DNA of 64,000 nt from Nonlabens ulvanivorans. Lineage in GTDB: Bacteria > Bacteroidota > Bacteroidia > Flavobacteriales > Flavobacteriaceae. The notes under the pieces were generated by a model. The model saw only the letters and a list, made by a program, of their open reading frames with translations. It had not been told where the DNA came from and did no database searches. A program made the translations under genes and the position numbers. Positions 9,001 through 43,054 of the stretch are shown one piece after another; position 1 is the first letter of the stretch, and every line of letters starts with the position of its first letter. The DNA lies in contig NZ_BBMK01000001.1 in assembly GCF_000755285.1 (NCBI RefSeq), positions 310,001 through 374,000 of the forward strand, given 5' to 3'.

Positions 9001-9314
9001 TGATCAGACAAAGTAGGTTCCTCGATACCATTAACGTAATTAGGTCCTACGGCATTTGGGGCATGCCCAGTGGAAAGAATAATTCCTTCACGAATAGGAA
9101 AACCAGAAGAGTTATGTTGAAAATAAGCTATCCCATTTTCATTAGGTCCAGCTCCGGTACTCCAAGCGATATTTCTAACACCTGCACAAGTGCTGTTCAC
9201 AAGAACATCTTCAACGAGCTCAATATTGGTATAAGTTGTATTGTCTACTATTATTTGAGCATTTGAAAAAACACAAAGACCTAGTAGAAGTAATAAAAGG
9301 GCTGCTTTTTTCAT
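6048..9314 (-). CDS. Type IX-secreted multi-repeat adhesin (type B sorting domain)
   Basis: A 1,088-residue secreted protein. Order: signal peptide (ALLLLLLGLCVFSNAQ); choice-of-anchor L-like region (about 25-280, with LSTGHAPNAVGPN and FEFLFASEEYDGG); an Ig-like segment; five tandem repeats of about 90 residues (about 365-820) each with an acidic C-D pair, a FDL segment, an SQADAD-like motif and a PQTVYVRVE-like strand; a further Ig-like segment; and the type B sorting domain (YFTPNNDGYHDTW to the C-terminus) recognised by the type IX system. Likely a surface adhesin or gliding-type filament. A C7 tract at 8894-8900 encodes Pro-Pro. Transcribed with the PorP/SprF gene downstream. Confidence 0.9.
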   Translation of the reverse strand: MKKAALLLLLLGLCVFSNAQIIVDNTTYTNIELVEDVLVNSTCAGVRNIAWSTGAGPNENGIAYFQHNSSGFPIREGIILSTGHAPNAVGPNYVNGIEEPTLSDQLGTASDSDLDNALAGSTPAVNSTDVTWMSFDFVPPQAGFMSFEFLFASEEYDGGFECTFSDAFAFLLTDTVTNTTTNLAVLPGTTEPIRVTNIHPAVPGSCPAINEQYFDRYNILPQGSTSPTQFNGRTVVLRAQSSVVAGRNYTIKLVIGDSDQSSPPSDRIYDSAVFIAGGSFDIGADLGLDRTLVGSNPLCEGDQYTLDASIAGAAMSYQWNRNAAPIPGATNATYTATTTGNYSVNINYTASCSTIASVFLEFISPNSSTPTDMQACGSGGTAVFDLTSKTSEALGALAAADHTVSYYESQSDAEAGINPIPNPSTYSNTANPQTVYVRVEENAFNCASVEEFDLIIATISAGTPMDMIACDVDNDGFFDFDLSTQDADMAGTNAAASVTVTYHLTQADADAGVNPVGPTYTNTTTPETIYGRVELNTDSNCADTASFNLILNPSPVAPTITDFESCSTIDPNTTVFALSDKDTEIMNGQANVLVSYYSTQADADIGVNELPTNGYTNTSNPQTIYVRLIDALTNCVNTDTTFELVVNDLPVVTAPALYDLCDDNTIDGFTAFDLATRDSEITGGNTSYTVFYYATQLDADNRMNELTGSYTNTVNPQTVFVVVEDNVTGCENYTTLNLEVIDAPQAATAPDLILCDDNNTGDLTETFNLTDNETAVLNGQTGITLTYHNSQADADAGSNAIGSPTSFDNSSSMQTVYVRVENTSGCFNTTNFNIIVNEVPVPQMFDLYYLCLDGNGNVLNTDNSPPTLDTTLSATGLSFSWSLDGNVLPAETGATLTATMVGMYTVTATATTTGCNSSQTTEVRQLGPPDSFGAEVTSRYFDEVHRIEAFAQGPATQYIFSVDDGPWQYNGFFEDVTPGPHVVFIQDLDGCNTVEIPIDVIGYPRYFTPNNDGYHDTWNIIGINNEPTTKIYIFDRYGKLLKQMNPSGIGWDGFYNGQPLPSSDYWFQVEYIENGSNKTFGGHFALKR

Positions 9315-35228: not shown

Positions 35229-35234
35229 CCAAAT

Positions 35235-35257
35235 GTCAGTCTGAGCTTGTCGTAGAC
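35235..35257 (+). repeat. CTGAGCTTGTCGAAG-family repeat R1
   Basis: GTCAGTCTGAGCTTGTCG then TAGAC; one base off the best copies. Head of an inverted pair with R2, 26 bases apart, in the gap between the YqiJ-like gene and flotillin. Confidence 0.85.
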
Positions 35258-35283
35258 GTATTTAAAACAACAATTGTTGATCG

Positions 35284-35307
35284 CACTTCAACAAGCTTAG
35301 TGTGACA
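35284..35307 (-). repeat. CTGAGCTTGTCGAAG-family repeat R2
   Basis: CACTTCAACAAGCTTAGTG then TGACA; inverted with respect to R1, two mismatches from consensus. Confidence 0.8.
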
Positions 35308-35350
35308 GCAACATTAAAAAGAAAAACAAACAATAAACCAAACAACAACT

Positions 35351-37422
35351 ATGGAAGGAATCTTACCAATTATCGTCACAGGACTAGGAATACTCTTATT
35401 CCTCATTATCGTATACTTCGCAATCATTGCGATGTTCTACAAAAAAGTACATCAAGGTCAGGCGCTGGTGCGTACTGGTTTTGGAGGTACAAAAGTCGCA
35501 ACAGATAAAGGACTTTATGTTGTACCGGTATTTCACCGTGTGGAAACTATGGATATTTCTGTTAAGAAAATCCAGATCGAGCGTATGGGCGTTGAAGGAT
35601 TGATCTGTAAAGACAATATGAGAGCCGATATTAAAGTCGCGTTTTTCGTGCGCGTGAATAACGAGGTAGAATTTATCAAAAAAGTAGCGCAAACCATAGG
35701 TGTCGCTCGTGCATCTCGCAAGGAAACACTAGAAGACCTGTTTGAAGCAAAATTCTCTGAGGCATTAAAAACCGTAGGTAAAAAGTTTGAATTTATCGCA
35801 TTATATGAAGCACGTCGCGAGTTCCGTGATGAGATCGTAGATATTATCGGTACAGACTTAAATGGTTATACACTAGAAGATTGTGCGATTGACTTTCTAG
35901 AGCAAACCAGTGTTTCTCATTTAAAAGCAGACAATATTTTAGATGCAGAAGGTATCAAGAAAATTACAGACCTTACTGCTGCACAAAACATAAAGGCCAA
36001 CTTGATTAAGCGTGATGAAGAAAAAATCATCCGTAAGCAAGATGTTGAAGCTCGTGAAGCGATTCTAGAATTAGATAAACAACTAGCTGAGAAAGAAGAA
36101 CAACAATTACGTGAGATTGCAAACATTAAATCTCGTGAAGGAGCTGAAATTCTTAAGGTAGCTGAAGAAGAAAGATTAAAGTCTGAAACAGCTCGTATTG
36201 CAACTACAGAAAAAGTGCAAGTTGCCGAAGAGAACATGCAACGTCAGATCATTATTGCAGAGAAAAATAAGCAACGTACTAACGCTGTTGAAACAGAACG
36301 TGTGGAGAAAGACCGCATGTTAGAATTGACCGAGAGAGAAAGAGTAGTAACTCTAGCTCAAATCGAGAAAGAGAAAGTAGTAGAAGTAGAGAAAAAGAAC
36401 ATCCAGGACGTAATAAGAGATCGCGTGATTCTTGAAAAAGGTGTGGTTGAAGAGCAAGAGAACATGAAAGATATCGAGCTTTCAAAACTGCCGATCGTTC
36501 TAAGCAAGTAGCCATCACAAATGCTGAGGCAAAAGCACAAGACGACCTGATACGTATCACTATAGCTGCTGAGGCTTCTAAACAAGCAGCAGTTCAAAGA
36601 GCTGAAGAAATCAATATTGAAGCACTTGCTCACAAAGAAGCTAGTGAAAAGCAAGCCGATGCTCGTAAGATTCTTGCTGAAGCAACTGCAAAAGAAGAAG
36701 CAACTGTAGGACTTTCTGAAGCACAAGTAATGCATGCAAAAGCTGAGGCTAGCGAGCGACAAGGTATTGTTGATGCACTCATCATCCAGAAAAAGGCTGA
36801 AGCTGAGGCAAGCGGTATTACTGCAAAAGCTGCTGCAAAACGTCAGGATGGACTTGCTGAAGCAGAGGTAATTAAAGAAAAAGCTCTTGCAGACGCTGCT
36901 GGTATAGAAGAGAAGGCAAACGCTATGAAGAAACTAGATGGTGTAGGTAAAGACCACGAAGAGTTCAAACTACGTCTAGACAAAGAACTTCAAGTAGACC
37001 TAGCACAGATCAATATCCAGAAAGATATTGCAGACGCACAAGCGCAAGTGATAGGAGATGCATTGAAAGCGGCTAAGATTGATATCGTTGGTGGTGAGAC
37101 TATGTTCTTTGAACAAATCATCGGTCAAATCACTAAGGCTAAAGGTTATGACAGACTCGTGAATCATTCTGAAACGGTATCTGAAGTAAAAGATGCCATT
37201 CTAGGTAGTGATGACGTAAAAGGAAATTTACTTGGAAAAGTAAAAGACTTTGCAGACAAGTATAACATCAGCTCTGAGGACATCAAGAACCTATCGATAG
37301 CAAATCTGTTGAGCAATCTACAGAACAAGTCTAACGATGGTGAAGAGAAAACCATGTTAGGTAACTTGATGAACCTTGCAAAAGGAATGGGATTGTCTAA
37401 CAAGAAGTTAGGAAATATCTAA
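35351..37422 (+). CDS. Flotillin-like SPFH protein (frameshifted)
   Basis: 690 residues after repair. One N-terminal helix (IIVTGLGILLFLIIVYFAIIAMFY), SPFH/Band 7 domain (about 38-200: GQALVRTGFGGTKVATDKG, VPVFHRVETMDISVKKIQ), then a very long Ala/Glu/Lys coiled coil (about 220-540) and a C-terminal oligomerisation region. This is the YqiK flotillin type, which scaffolds membrane microdomains. The frame breaks at the A4 run 36484-36487; one more A gives SKTADRSKQVAITNAEAKA and joins the two halves. Downstream hairpin at 37433-37467 ends the unit. Confidence 0.9.
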
Positions 37423-37432
37423 GGATGTTTTT

Positions 37433-37467
37433 GACCGTCTGCCTTCTAAGCAGATGGTCTTTACTTT
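37433..37467 (+). terminator. Terminator after flotillin
   Basis: GACCGTCTGC and GCAGATGGTC (one G-U pair) form a 10-bp stem with a 7-base loop, followed by TTTACTTTC, 11 bases after the flotillin stop. Confidence 0.7.
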
Positions 37468-37474
37468 CTAATTT

Positions 37475-37497
37475 GTCAATCTGAGCCTGTCGAAGAT
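37475..37497 (+). repeat. CTGAGCTTGTCGAAG-family repeat R3
   Basis: GTCAATCTGAGCCTGTCGAA then GAT; two mismatches. Pairs as an inverted repeat with the worn copy R4. Confidence 0.85.
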
Positions 37498-37528
37498 GGT
37501 GTAACTACCAATAAGATTTATACAAATC

Positions 37529-37551
37529 GCATTTCAACAGGATTGTACTGA
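37529..37551 (-). repeat. CTGAGCTTGTCGAAG-family repeat R4 (degenerate)
   Basis: CATTTCAACAGGATTGTACT then GAG; recognisable but worn copy, inverted relative to R3. Confidence 0.55.
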
Positions 37552-37610
37552 GTTTACCGAAGTGCTAAGTGTGCCAAAAGTATAATGAATAGGAAAAATA
37601 ACTTCGAAAT

Positions 37611-37633
37611 GTCAGTCTGAGCTTGTCGAAGAC
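37611..37633 (+). repeat. CTGAGCTTGTCGAAG-family repeat R5, left flank of GIY-YIG gene
   Basis: GTCAGTCTGAGCTTGTCGAA then GAC, a consensus copy 22 bases before the GIY-YIG start codon. R6 is its inverse on the other side of the gene. Confidence 0.92.
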
Positions 37634-37655
37634 GATGTTAAAAGCAATTAACTTT

Positions 37656-37970
37656 ATGAAATTCTATTTTGTCTACATATTAAAATGCAGCGATGATAGT
37701 TTTTATACTGGTTTTACTTCTAACCTCGATCAACGAGTAGATCAACATCAAATGGGGGGGAAATCTGCAGGATATACTTCTAAAAGACTACCTGTTGAAT
37801 TAGTATGGTATGAACAGTTTCTTGACGATCCAGAACAAGCGATTGTTTGGGAGAAAAAGATAAAAGGCTGGTCAAGAAGAAAGAAACAAGCGTTGATTGA
37901 TGGAGATTGGGATAGTCTAGTCCTTTTTTCTAAAAATTATGCTCAATATGGGAATAGGATTATAAAATAG
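37656..37970 (+). CDS. GIY-YIG nuclease flanked by inverted repeats
   Basis: A 104-residue single-domain GIY-YIG endonuclease. FYFVYILKCSDDSFYTGFTS holds the GIY-YIG strands (here VYI and YTG), with Arg in LDQRVDQHQMGG, the GYTSKRLPVELVWYEQF stretch and Glu in AIVWEKKIKGWSRRKKQALI, as in the small UvrC-like family. The open frame extends into repeat R5 with a TTG, but the ATG at 37656 fits the family length. The gene stands between inverted repeats R5 and R6, with no other genes, and interrupts the flotillin-ATPase spacing. A G7 tract (37754-37760) gives Met-Gly-Gly. Confidence 0.92.
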   Translation: MKFYFVYILKCSDDSFYTGFTSNLDQRVDQHQMGGKSAGYTSKRLPVELVWYEQFLDDPEQAIVWEKKIKGWSRRKKQALIDGDWDSLVLFSKNYAQYGNRIIK

Positions 37971-37982
37971 ATTGTGCAGCCG

Positions 37983-38006
37983 CACTTCGACAAGCTCAGT
38001 GTGACA
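37983..38006 (-). repeat. CTGAGCTTGTCGAAG-family repeat R6, right flank of GIY-YIG gene
   Basis: CACTTCGACAAGCTCAGTG then TGACA, 12 bases after the GIY-YIG stop, inverted relative to R5; 36 bases before the ATPase start codon. Confidence 0.92.
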
Positions 38007-38042
38007 CAAGCATTATAACCAACAAAACAAACTACCATTTCA

Positions 38043-41000
38043 ATGGCAGAAAAAGATATAAAAGACACCACACAACTAGACTCAGGAACCTACGAGATCA
38101 TCCAGAGCCGTTTGCTCAAGCAAAAGAACGACTTGCAGCAACGACTCAATGGGCTTAATGAAGAACGTAAAAAAGTCTTCGGTTCACTAGAGACACGACT
38201 GATTGCAAATGACCGTGTAAATACAGAGAATAACTGTATTGCCCGTGATATTGTGACGATTGGCAAGTACAGTATTTTTGGCTATAACGTGCATTTTGGG
38301 TTGCGTACAGAAATCAACTTAAGTGATGTTTTTAGTATCTATGAGTTTGATCGTGATGGTGTGGATGGTGATGCATTACGCTTTCGCGAAAGCGGGAACA
38401 AGTTAAACCTCATCACAGACCCTACTTTTCAGACTGATTTTGAGAACCTTTACAAGTACTATCGCAACACGATTTTTTCAAAGTTTGCGATTATGGGGGA
38501 ATTACCTGCATATGGTATTCCAGCTCAGTGATTCGGTTACTGATATCAAAACTTTTAAATGGTTAATTACAGACGAAGGACTGCAATATGTAGACAATCG
38601 TAGTGAGCACGAGTATAAGTTTCCTGCGCAATATGGTTTCCAGTGGAAAGAAGCTGGACGTGATAATCAGCGTGCTGGAGTTCACGGTCACGTGTCTATT
38701 CTCGATAAGGTTTTTGTAGAAACTATAGGTGGCGATTTAACCATTAAAGTTGAAGATAATACTGATGATGGTCAGGGAATTTACCGTGAAGACGTAGAAC
38801 ATCGCGACCAGACGCTAGATGATGGACAATACCGCTATGCAGATTTAGGCAATCTAATCGTTCTAGAAATAAAGCCGTTTCAAGAAGAGCCTCGCTATTT
38901 TGTGTACAACCACAAGATTAAAGAAGTAGAAAAAATAGACAGCATTGCTCAGGCAGCTGTGCTGTTACCAGATGATCAAGGAATTATTTTTCCTAGTGGA
39001 TATTACTTGCAAACTGGAGCATATAATGTATTCCCTAGTGATGCTGGAAAGTTAAAATTCCAGCAAAGAATCGCGTCACCTAATGGTGAAGATCATTTGT
39101 TTGTTTTCTATAATGGGGGCAAAAGGACTGTATGTACTGATGTCTTATAATGTGATTGATCAAACGGTAAAAACACCTATCGTTTGTAATGGTTTTACAA
39201 TTTTAGAACAAGGTGAATTGTGCTATTTCCGCACAGAGGATGAGCAGACCAAGCATCACATGATGCAAATATGGCAAACACCTTATTTAAAAGGTAACAT
39301 CATGCCGTCTGAGCATCAAGACACGATGTTATTTAAGATAGGAAACAAGGACATTGTTAAAGCTATGGCGCAGGCAAATGAGCTACTGACACTTCTTAAC
39401 AAAGAAGATAGTTATAGCGGTTTGTATGATGACATTGCACGTTCTTCAAAAGATATTCTAGATGCTTATTACTGGTTGCCTGAAGAAGAAACTAAACAAA
39501 TTAATCTACCTCTTAACGAGATCAATAAAGCGTCTAACGCCGCTATTGACGAGTTTGAAAAGGTAAAACAGCTGCGCAAACAAGCGGCTGCAGATACAAA
39601 GGCAATTTCTAAAAAGGCTGATGAACTTTTTAATAAAGTAAAAAGTACTTCCTTTAAGTCCATCAATGACTTTGTACAGTTGTTAACGCAACTGAGAGGT
39701 TTACGTGGTGAAGCGATAGGACTTTATGAAATACGCTATGTAGACACTGATTTTATTAAAGGAATTGAGGAGCAAATCGTTGAGCAAAACGAGGTGATCT
39801 CCCGTCGTGCAGTGACCTTTTTACTAGACGACAAAGCGCTTGCACCATACCACGATGCGGTAAATGAAAAGCAAACAGCTCTAGACGCTACTAAGAAAGT
39901 CATCGAAATTAAGAATCTAGAAAAAGAGGTCAATCAAATAGCTGTAGATCTAGAGCTATTGATTGATATTGTTTCTAATCTGGAGATAGAAGACACGTCG
40001 CATTCTACAAAGATTATTGAAAACATATCGTTGATTTTTGCCACCATAAATCAGGTGAAAGCAGCGATTAAGAATAAGGTGAAAACCGTAGGTAAAAAAG
40101 AAGCGCAAGCAGATTTTGCAGCACAATTAAAGCTGATTGATCAAAGTATTATCAATTACCTGGACATTGCAAACACACCAGAAAAATGTGATGAATTCCT
40201 GACCAAAGTTTCCATACAACTAGAAGAACTAGAAGGGAAATTTGCCGATTATGAGGAGTACATCACAGAGATTATGGGCAAGCGTGAAGAGGTTTATGCA
40301 GCCTTTGATAATCGCAAAAGCAGTCTGGTTGAAGCGCGTAATAAAAAGGCACTCGCCTTTCAAAACGCTGCACAACGTATTTTAAAAGGAGTACAAAAAA
40401 GAGCGCAATCCTTAGATAGCATTACAGAAATCAACGGCTATTTTGCTAGCGATTTAATGATCAATAAGGTGCGCGACATAGTTGTACAATTAAAAGAACT
40501 GGACGACGCTGGAAAAGCCGAAGGAATTGAAACAGCCCTTAAAGTAGCCCGTGAAGATGCCTTGAGAAAACTTAAGGATAAGAACGAGCTTTATGAAGAT
40601 GGCGATAATATCATTAAGCTAGGGAAACACAAATTTGGCGTTAATAAACAACAGCTAGATCTTACCATCGTTTTTAAGGAAAATAAGCTGTTCTATCACT
40701 TAACAGGAACAGATTTTTATCAAGAATTACATAACGAGATTCTCACGCAATCTCAAGGAATATGGAATCAAGAATTAGTTTCAGAAAACAAACAAGTCTA
40801 TCGTGCCGCTTACCTCGCCTACTCCATCTTTAAAACTGGAGATAAAGAGACTTTAAGAATGATGAGTTCAGCAGATTTGCTGGCAACTGTTCAAGATATT
40901 GCTAGCGGTAACTATTCTGGTGGCTATGTAAAAGGTGTTCACGATCACGATGCAGCACAATTTCTAGGTGTTTTATTACACAAGCATCACGATCTAGGGT

Positions 41001-43054
41001 TGCTTACTTATGATCCTAACACGAGATCGCAGGCGCAGTTTTTCTGGAATGACTTTGACACGACACGTCGCACACGCACTAATCGTATTTTGAAAAGTGC
41101 TGGTGAAGTATTATCTGTATTTCCAGACAGTAAAGAGTATGATTTTATTGTGGATGAGCTAGCAAATGAGATCTATAATCGCAATGTTGCTACAAATGCC
41201 GACTTCGACAAGCTCAGCCTGACAAATGAATTAAAAACTACCGATGTCACGTTGAGCCTGTCGAAACGTAGTTTGAATACTACAAAGCCTAATTCTATAA
41301 CTCCTGTTCGAAACGAACATCAAATCGCAAGTTATTTATTTAACGAGTTAAAGGATAACAACAATTTTACGGTAAGCACGAGTGCTATCCAATTGAAAGA
41401 AGCTTTTGAGAAGAAAATAAAAACTCAAAATGCCGACTTGAAATTCAAGAAAAGTCTAGAAGCTTGTGAAGACGAGAAGTCTAAAGTGGAACTGGTGAGA
41501 CATTGGGTTTCCGCTTTCGCGAAAGCGCACTTCGACAAGCTCAGTGTGACAAAACAAAATTGGTTACCCTACATAGACGAATGTGTGGCAAACATCCTTT
41601 ACGGAGAATTGACTGCCGATAAAACAGTTGCCATATCGCCGCATGAAGAAATCAGTGGATTAAAAGGATCGCACAGCACGATTACCGAAGGTACATTCCT
41701 ATTCAATTACCACGACTTTGTCATAGCTCTAGAGCGTTTTGTGAATATAAAAGTGCCCGCTTATGAGACGTTTAGAAAAGCAAAACATGAGGTAACTGAA
41801 GAGCTCAAAGAGTCCTTGAGACTTGAAGAATTTAAGCCACGAGTATTGAGTTCGTTTGTGCGTAACAAGTTGATCGATCAGGTTTATTTCCCATTAATAG
41901 GAGATAATCTTGCTAAACAATTAGGTACCGTAGGCGATACAAAACGTACCGACCGTATGGGATTGTTACTACTCATATCACCACCAGGTTATGGTAAAAC
42001 AACCTTGATGGAATATGTAGCAAACCGATTAGGCTTGATATTTATGAAAATAAATGGTCCAGCGATAGGTCACGAGATCACGTCTGTAGATCCTGAAGCA
42101 GCAACTAATGCAGCGACAAGAGAAGAGCTTAAAAAACTGAATCTTGCTTTTGAAATGGGTGATAACGTGATGTTATATCTAGATGATATTCAACACTGTA
42201 ATCCTGAGTTTTTACAAAAATTCATCAGTCTGTCTGATGGAACTCGTAAAATTGAAGGAGTCTATAATGGAAAGCCTAAAACCTACGATCTACGTAGTAA
42301 GAAATTTTGCGTAATCATGGCTGGTAATCCGTATACAGAAAGTGGTGATAAGTTCCAGATTCCAGATATGCTTGCCAATCGTGCCGATATTTATAATCTA
42401 GGTGATATTATAGGTGATACAGCTCATTTATTTGAATTGAGTCTGGTAGAAAATGCACTGACTAGTAATCCCGTATTGCAACAATTGAGTAACAAGCATT
42501 TTGATGATGTTTATGCATTGATTGATCGTGTTCAAAACGGAGCAAGTGATAATGAGTTAAAAGGAAATCACAGCAATCAAGAAATAGCCGATTATGTTGC
42601 TGTGCTAGAGAAGGTATTGAAAATACGCGATACCGTTCTTAAAGTGAACCAGACTTATATCGCTAGTGCAGGAATGGAAGATGCTTATCGTACAGAGCCT
42701 AGTTTTAAACTACAAGGTTCTTATAGAGATATGAATAAACTGGTTGCAAAAGTAGTCCCAATAATGGATGATAAAGAGCTACAAACGCTTCTATTATCGC
42801 ATTATGAAAGTGAATCACAAACCTTAACTAGTGCTGCAGAGGCCAATCTTTTGAAATATAAAGAACTCGTAAAAACTATCTCACTAGAGGAACAGCAACG
42901 ATGGGAAGATATCAAAGGGATTTTTGCCAAGAACAATAAACTTAACGGTCTAGGTGGACAGAATCAAATGTCTCAAGTTTTGAGCCAAATGATGGATTTC
43001 ACCGAGAATCTAGAAGGCATTAAAGAGGTATTGAGGAAAGGATTGTCTAAGTGA
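38043..43054 (+). CDS. DUF3686/AAA 'DNA repair ATPase' of the PspA cluster (two frameshifts)
   Basis: 1,669 residues after repair. N-terminal DUF3686 region (about 1-460; starts with a coiled coil, then ENNCIARDIVTIGKYSIFGY), a long coiled-coil middle, and a MoxR-like AAA module near 1305-1480 with Walker A SPPGYGKTTLMEY, Walker B NVMLYLDDIQH and sensor VIMAGNPYTESG. The name is traditional; the context with PspA and flotillin argues for membrane stress. Two G5 tracts (38495-38499 and 39115-39119) break the frame; read as G4 they give MGNYLHMVFQLSD and FYNGAKGLYVLMSYN. Holds one palindrome at 38379, one at 41512 and three CTGAGC-type repeats. Confidence 0.88.
38379..38394. repeat. 16-bp palindrome, copy 10 (in DUF3686 ATPase)
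   Basis: Perfect CGCTTTCGCGAAAGCG; encodes RFRES followed by Gly near residue 113. Confidence 0.95.
41201..41224 (-). repeat. CTGAGCTTGTCGAAG-family repeat R7 (in ATPase gene)
   Basis: GACTTCGACAAGCTCAGCC then TGACA; read in frame as DFDKLSLT within a hydrophilic linker. Confidence 0.88.
41246..41268 (+). repeat. CTGAGCTTGTCGAAG-family repeat R8 (in ATPase gene)
   Basis: GTCACGTTGAGCCTGTCGAA then ACG; inverse of R7, 21 bases away; read in frame as VTLSLSKR. Confidence 0.82.
41512..41527. repeat. 16-bp palindrome, copy 11 (in DUF3686 ATPase)
   Basis: Perfect CGCTTTCGCGAAAGCG, encodes AFAKA, and directly abuts repeat R9. Confidence 0.95.
41528..41551 (-). repeat. CTGAGCTTGTCGAAG-family repeat R9 (in ATPase gene)
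   Basis: CACTTCGACAAGCTCAGTG then TGACA, identical to R6; read in frame as HFDKLSVT. It starts at the base after palindrome copy 11. Confidence 0.92.

Follow-up and report, generated by a model that had tools for sequence, protein, structure and literature searches.

Why should the gene for a small nuclease lie between inverted copies of one short repeat? The question is raised by a locus of Nonlabens ulvanivorans (Flavobacteriaceae): in the window, by which we mean the whole 64-kb stretch of DNA analysed here (64,000 nucleotides), a gene encoding a 104-amino-acid GIY-YIG protein (37656-37970, + strand) has inverted copies of the 15-mer CTGAGCTTGTCGAAG on both sides. In REP/REPIN systems with RAYT, the gene of an HUH/Y1 enzyme is flanked by its own repeats, which carry the tags GTAG or CGTC. 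GIY-YIG nucleases have reportedly been linked with repeats as well: a 2025 paper on Ssn is said to describe GIY-YIG nucleases of Neisseria, which cut single-stranded DNA at the NTS repeat and modulate transformation; homologues are put in the thousands, each said to have its own sequence. The first-pass annotation of the window had proposed a REP-like mobile unit in which the nuclease acts on its flanking repeats.

Results

A small GIY-YIG gene bracketed by inverted repeats

The 104-aa protein matches PF01541 at 59.1 bits (Pfam cut-off 22.6), and this is its sole Pfam match, with neither an added DNA-binding domain nor an HUH/Y1 transposase domain found by Pfam. In an alignment of 28 relatives 21 columns are invariant, including Y7, Y17, R27, H31 and E66; by analogy with I-TevI, we take the Tyr, Arg, His and Glu residues to have catalytic roles. 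By sequence, the nearest solved structures are those of the UPF0213 proteins 1zg2 and 1ywl, named hypothetical proteins. An alternative in-frame ATG is possible at 37635. On the basis of the PF01541 match and the conserved residues, we annotate the gene as a UPF0213-like GIY-YIG nuclease and putative repeat-specific single-strand nuclease. The rest of the genome (G000; 3.09 Mb, 3,091,813 bases, 25 contigs, 87% complete) contains one other small GIY-YIG gene, on contig C24 (open frame of 109 aa, 29% identical), and three further GIY-YIG matches in longer frames.

The gene is intergenic and situated between its presumed sites, in a conserved cluster that runs from a CesT_Tir_1/YbjN-like protein through PspA, a 236-aa ORF (ORF236) and an SPFH/Band_7 gene to a DUF3686 AAA ATPase. 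The SPFH and DUF3686/ATPase genes are broken into several frames at 36490-36730, about 38496 and about 39113; their spacing in congeners fits unbroken genes, and since two of the breaks lie at runs of G, assembly indels are likely. The window also holds the palindrome GCTTTCGCGAAAGC, exact or with one mismatch, at 15 sites from 3797 to 60679, about one per 4 kb (30 strand-wise matches against 0.03 expected); some lie within reading frames, and the pattern recalls highly iterated palindromes.

With up to three mismatches allowed, CTGAGCTTGTCGAAG has ten matches in the window against 1.12 expected, a number reached in 0 of 100 shuffles, and nine of the ten fall within 35241-41544. Two exact copies stand on either side of the gene, at 37617-37631 (+) and 37985-37999 (-), and seven others lie within 3.6 kb, at 35241, 35286, 37481, 37548, 41203, 41252 and 41530. 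The bracketing by inverted repeats that had been read from the letters alone is thus borne out, with two corrections: the repeats lie 24 bases from the ATG and 14 past the stop (22 and 12 had been given), and a tenth match, at 9209 with three mismatches and hence at chance level, exists in a window said to hold none away from the gene. The exact 15-mer occurs 11 times in the genome, its reversed control 0 times. Of the 14 copies of the core GAGCYTGTCGAAG in the genome, three are no more than 600 bp away from the gene (binomial P = 4e-8, with no correction for the choice of the place).

The repeat is a tagged hairpin with a covarying stem

The 15-mer was ruled out as the complete unit, being its middle part, because conserved letters reach from a tag, TGTCA, to the foot of a stem of 4 bp. 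The full length is about 24 nt, TGTCA-NNYY-GAG-loop-CGA-RRNN: the tag, present on the 5' side alone, leads into the 4-bp stem, whose arms show compensatory changes; further in, GA stands opposite GA, followed by a G-C pair and the loop. In the window, the unit 5' of the gene (37610-37633, +) has the stem GTCT/AGAC and the inverted unit 3' of it (37983-38006, -) the stem CACT/AGTG, both with the tag TGTCA and the loop CTTGT; upstream lie a further tagged hairpin unit (37474-37497, +; TGTCA, stem ATCT/AGAT, loop CCTGT) and a degenerate one with the loop TTTAC and without the TGTCA tag (37541-37564, +). Between ORF236 and the SPFH gene, a unit at 35234-35257 (+) faces a degenerate 15-mer copy with two mismatches (35286-35300, -). 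The ATPase reading frame contains an inverted pair, 41201-41224 (-) and 41245-41268 (+, stem ACGTT/AACGT), which we call site 1, and a single unit at 41528-41551 (-), site 2.

To assess covariation, we took all core copies up to 600 bp from a gene, whether or not they could form a stem. In the resulting 150 distinct flanks, whose relatedness this test does not remove, the four stem positions pair in 96, 93, 93 and 91%; at position 3, where the letters vary, 140 of 150 pair (shuffled mean 38.7), and at position 4, where they vary likewise, 137 of 150 (shuffled mean 56). A second class of unit, with CGNAG loops, gives 95, 95, 90 and 82% of 113, positions 3 and 4 contributing 102/113 and 93/113. 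Outside the stem, conservation is confined to the 5' side and to TGTCA; the Sphingomonad tag is CCG-led, e.g. CCGTTCG or CCGCTCA. The GA of GAG stands opposite the GA of CGA, as G.A and A.G, and, judging from known DNA motifs, may form sheared tandem pairs. The nearest upstream unit is in + orientation at 35 of 49 loci and the nearest downstream unit in - orientation at 41 of 50 (34/40 and 32/40 in the CGNAG class), so that the tags mostly point outward from the gene.

In a 16-gene clade labelled 'none' for its loop class, 15 loci have TGTCA, a 4-bp stem (mostly GTTC, CTTC or CATC), GA/GA and a long loop, a plan found in 2 of 320 shuffled flanks by a search framed after the clade's repeats had been seen; five more distant relatives of the clade have none. 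DNA folding energies single out 0 of six window units as folding clearly better than their own shuffles, and the thermodynamic argument for a hairpin was dropped for this reason.

Regulatory or terminator-like hairpins, clustered as a by-product of their intergenic position, could account for part of this picture, since the window units closest to the gene lie between genes and can form small hairpins. Such hairpins would not be expected to have a one-sided tag, to lack a T run after the stem, as the unit does, or to lie inside the ATPase reading frame, nor would DNA 1-5 kb from the gene, or DNA beside viral GIY-YIG genes, be nearly free of units, as described below. We regard this explanation as very improbable.

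Units crowd small GIY-YIG genes in several phyla

We scanned species genomes with the 28-sequence alignment and used the best 80 of at least 579 confirmed candidates. Flavobacteriaceae and other Bacteroidota are among the sources of these 80, as are Sphingomonads, Ignavibacteria, Chloroflexota, Nitrospinota, a Nocardioides and a Legionella MAG. Among these best 80 loci, the core GAGCYTGTCGA reaches 3.76 per kb in the first 100 bp from the gene, and the bins beyond 1 kb have 0.027 per kb (1-2 kb) and 0.007-0.023 (further out), a drop of more than 100-fold; 36 of the 80 loci have a copy within 500 bp. When the inner triplets of 4-bp-stem hairpins were ranked at the same 80 loci with no motif preset, GAG/CGA came first, with 202 hairpins in 62 kb near the genes, 21 in 490 kb far from them, and 65 of the 80 loci represented.

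The Sphingomonad family of the Novosphingobium locus L116, which belongs to another class, was sampled separately (119 genomes, 79 with a match, the best 30 loci used; one of them, L287, is L116 itself). It has 67 core copies within 400 bp (24 kb) and 1 beyond 700 bp (48 kb), a core copy at 21 of the best 30 loci, and GAG/CGA again in first place (26/30 loci). The negative control consisted of 62 viral GIY-YIG relatives, looked at as possible carriers too; for 55 of them the gene was uniformly set at 240 bases. The core was found in 0 of the 62, and there were 2 hairpins in 48 kb. The repeats are not independent of GIY-YIG genes, the co-location for which the first-pass annotation had suggested a genome search, and its comparison with REP architecture holds as well: the units are tagged hairpins with inverted pairs that flank the gene in several phyla. 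At loci L055 (G264) and L061 (G034), tandem GIY-YIG genes about 1 kb apart lie among repeats.

Whole-genome counts of GAGCYTGTCGAAG were made for 16 loci, with a reversed control of 0-2 per genome except at L138. For loci labelled CYTGT the counts are 105 (L144), 85 (L110), 69 (L127), 58 (L116), 40 (L122), 37 (L071), 31 (L072), 25 (L103), 24 (L100), 6 (L133) and 5 (L124), the last two being few for genomes with a gene of this label, which counts against a pairing of nuclease and repeat. L132, labelled 'none' by a tie and with one CCTGT unit, has 162; L119, labelled CGNAG and with one CCTGT unit, has 40; L138 has 8 (control 3), and L098 and L145 have 0. The copy number observed per genome thus ranges from 0 to about 160.

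Repeats with and without a cognate gene nearby

At the level of the family (249 genomes), a close GIY-YIG match (E at most 1e-15) is present in 91 genomes, of which 44 have at least three GAGCYTGTCGAAG copies; of the 158 genomes without such a match, 15 have that many, an odds ratio of 8.9. Nine of these 15 exceptions were examined; seven of the nine have a GIY-YIG match with E at most 1e-3, and a CYTGT hairpin occurs in 0 of the 15 stretches read. Genome G198 has 40 copies, none near its four GIY-YIG matches; at the 11 places read, several copies belong to a longer, MITE-like repeat whose inverted ends are GTTAAGTTAAGCT-like. In this MITE-like repeat (L272-L276, L280, L282) the CYTGT units are single or form an inverted pair 41 bp apart. 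Such repeat-rich genomes without a cognate gene count against the pairing and remain partly unexplained.

Loop classes cluster on the nuclease tree

A tree was built from 98 columns and 139 rows, with near-copies included and rows containing stops entered with X at the stop. Loop labels were assigned by our own rule on the three commonest loops per locus, by which 34 of the 139 rows are 'none', some by tie. Five loop classes plus 'none' need 26 changes on this 139-protein tree, from which relatedness is not removed (shuffled mean 69.9; 0 of 200 as low); 19 of its 133 inner branches are well supported and 52 are open. The correspondence of loop class and clade is not one-to-one: the CYTGT class alone accounts for 19 changes, and CTTGT cores also occur beside genes of another clade (L034 in G015, L024 in G006, L320 in G001), there in a longer repeat without the TGTCA tag. 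G001 and G009 each have two GIY-YIG genes with different loops, none of them shared: CTTGT/CCTGT at L016 (G001) and L017 (G009), and CGGAGT, CGAAGT or CGTAGC, without the CYTGT core, at L036 (G001) and L037 (G009).

Since loop classes cluster strongly, if not one-to-one, on the nuclease tree, we infer that the nucleases read their own hairpins, and the relation of loop class to nuclease clade suggests a recognition code. The residues most informative for CYTGT versus CGNAG are 89, 93 and 90, then 64-65; they point to the C-terminal region, though relatedness may exaggerate this signal.

Units and genes turn over between congeners

In G015 an orthologue occupies the same place, between SPFH and DUF3686, and so does one in G014, where the contig is short and the DUF3686 side alone is visible; they share 86 and 90% identity with the window protein. 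Orthologues of 66-75% identity in G001, G009 and G021 belong to another gene cluster, again among repeats. As repeats adjoin orthologues both at the same place and elsewhere, all six close genus orthologues (6/6) have adjacent units, where the first-pass annotation had looked for a counter-example in relatives with the gene but no flanking repeats. The check it proposed, whether repeat-poor relatives lack the gene, fared worse: genus genomes with an orthologue have 4-22 core copies versus 0-23 in those without, a wide overlap (2-23 in 16 genomes, and 0 in G019, which has no GIY-YIG match either).

We read the SPFH-DUF3686 gap in 15 genus members. In G008, G021, G009 and G019 it measures just 133-219 bp and has no gene and no CYTGT unit; in G001 it has a 405-codon ORF. 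In seven of the 15 (G003, G004, G011, G012, G018, G020 and G022; loci L242, L245, L240, L249, L251, L246 and L244) it contains a RAYT-like gene, as judged by ORF, and the G020 ORF matches Y1_Tnp and, below the curated cut-off, NF047646. This occupancy, together with genomes that have repeats without a cognate gene nearby, would fit a passenger role for the GIY-YIG gene, with another enzyme such as RAYT moving the repeats and the arrays serving as permissive insertion sites. Yet none of the seven RAYT-occupied gaps has a CYTGT unit, loop classes cluster on the GIY-YIG tree, the two GIY-YIG genes of one genome (G001, G009) can have different, unshared loops, and the association recurs in other phyla; a passenger role therefore appears improbable to us.

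At site 1 of the ATPase frame, the inverted CYTGT pair of G000 is also present in G015; it stands in the opposite order in G008 and consists of one intact and one altered copy in G003. G011 and G004 have a repeat of another type there, and G017, G020, G022, G001 and G009 lack CYTGT units at this site. The G011 and G004 ATPase genes (L215, L220) have a GAG-GCTCT-CGA hairpin at the CYTGT place, read as the peptide QFESLTAR. At site 2, G000 and G011 have one unit each and G018 has two of the CGGAGT kind; the remaining 12 of the 15 genomes shown have none. A check for target-site duplication of the insertion-sequence type at polymorphic copies met flanks too diverged for one to be defined; at site 2 the difference is 18 bp, the stretch with the unit being longer by that much than in unit-less relatives. 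G000, G001, G009 and G015 all have the unit between ORF236 and SPFH, G020 and G021 lack it, and in G008, G017 and G022 other sequence splits the interval. In the comparison of lone G001 units with those of G009, the locus L313 gave short matches only. Finally, the second nuclease gene of G001, 47% identical to that of the window, is absent at the matching place of G009, where repeat units are all that is left. Units and genes thus turn over between congeners at matching places.

Discussion

Gene and short hairpin repeats probably travel together, the GIY-YIG nuclease recognising a repeat family of its own, in a REP-like design. Four lines of sequence evidence lead us to this reading: in several phyla, repeats in inverted orientation are tightly clustered at genes of this type; each is built as a tagged hairpin with a covarying stem and a loop that goes with its class; these loop classes group together on the protein tree; and at matching places congeners differ in their units and genes. 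Counted against it are the folding energies, the imperfect match of loop and clade, the repeat-rich genomes without the gene, the overlap of copy number within the genus and the failure to define a target-site duplication. The mobile unit proposed at the outset, with a nuclease acting on its repeats, accordingly stands in part: flanking association, loop clustering and presence or absence at matching places agree with it, and the repeat-rich genomes lacking a cognate gene nearby and the copy-number overlap do not.

How might such a pair work? The enzyme would bind the unit as single-stranded DNA, either on the lagging strand or on a strand taken up in transformation. It may read the loop partly with its C-terminal region, residues 87-93 being among the most different between loop classes, and would nick beside the tag or the stem. 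Further along, nicking followed by host repair, recombination or strand switching could spread or delete units and occasionally the gene too, and gene and repeats could be maintained as selfish partners, in a way comparable to RAYT and REP. GIY-YIG enzymes are hydrolytic and do not join DNA; a joining step is therefore missing from this spreading mechanism. In its full form, the proposal would be a GIY-YIG analogue of RAYT/REP in several phyla, in which the tagged hairpin with its opposed GA pairs is recognised, nicking and host repair copy the enzyme's own repeats, loop and nuclease co-evolve into many pairs, and these compete with RAYTs for genomic niches. We hold this full form tentatively, at a little under an even chance.

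The same hydrolytic chemistry would suit a nuclease that recognises the repeats and does not move them. The repeats would then be marks that tune single-stranded DNA uptake or recombination in natural transformation, spread by ordinary recombination and kept by function; tuning of transformation via repeats has reportedly been proposed in the Ssn/NTS study in Neisseria. That 11 of the 14 core copies in the N. ulvanivorans genome lie more than 600 bp from the gene is in keeping with marks, and so is the G009 repeat array from which the gene is missing, as recombination between repeats could bring about. Units at polymorphic places, also inside a reading frame, sit less well with it, and a uniform marking function does not predict that units crowd the gene itself. 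We consider marks of this kind rather unlikely, if well worth keeping in mind beside the REP-like pair.

A GIY-YIG/repeat system of this kind has probably already been described as Ssn, which makes the statement in the first-pass annotation that no such system is known probably wrong: the Ssn proteins are said to be GIY-YIG enzymes that act on dispersed genomic repeats, and the window system would be a putative variant. With Ssn/NTS of Neisseria meningitidis, as reportedly described, it would share a small stand-alone GIY-YIG nuclease, dispersed repeats as presumed sites and a wide bacterial spread. Gene-associated genomic repeats, a feature of the Ssn type, are present here; a homologue-specific repeat is approached, in that loop classes cluster on the tree, yet CTTGT cores also adjoin genes of another clade. 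Several things seen here may or may not be in the Ssn paper: the tagged covarying hairpin with its opposed GA, the division into loop classes, the copies within a reading frame and the site that RAYT-like genes occupy in congeners.

The likeness to REP/RAYT lies in an enzyme gene flanked by repeats, which are short, imperfect hairpins tagged on the 5' side only and arranged in inverted pairs, and in a repeat class related to the enzyme class. Unlike there, the enzyme is GIY-YIG and not HUH/Y1, a Y1_Tnp gene standing instead at the same site in congeners, and the tag is TGTCA (CCG-led in Sphingomonads) and not GTAG or CGTC. Having the wrong enzyme and the wrong tag, the system is REP/RAYT-like in layout and not a member. 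With GIY-YIG homing endonucleases of the I-TevI type it has in common the GIY-YIG catalytic domain in a selfish-looking gene; here there is no intron and no added DNA-binding domain, the gene is intergenic, and its presumed sites flank it and are not interrupted. A homing-type empty site, in the form of a CYTGT unit, was not found in the empty gaps of G008, G009, G019 and G021. The UPF0213 proteins 1zg2 and 1ywl add closeness by sequence.

Among the papers listed as joining GIY-YIG with REPIN, RAYT or palindromic intergenic repeats, the pairing is not described in titles and the openings of abstracts. A survey of the GIY-YIG superfamily (PMC1564403) does not contain the terms UPF0213 and COG2827, and a paper dealing with GTAG and CGTC repeats (PMC3733652) does not contain 'GIY'. 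Our searches found no paper on the letters of the repeat sequence and none linking UPF0213 with GIY-YIG.

The finding offers an owner for the core GAGCYTGTCGA beside such genes in Bacteroidota, Alphaproteobacteria, Chloroflexota, Nitrospinota and Ignavibacteriota. It also provides many natural enzyme/site pairs for testing how small GIY-YIG proteins recognise structured single-stranded DNA. If it is true that such enzymes spread repeats, an unrelated enzyme class would be doing the job of the RAYTs.
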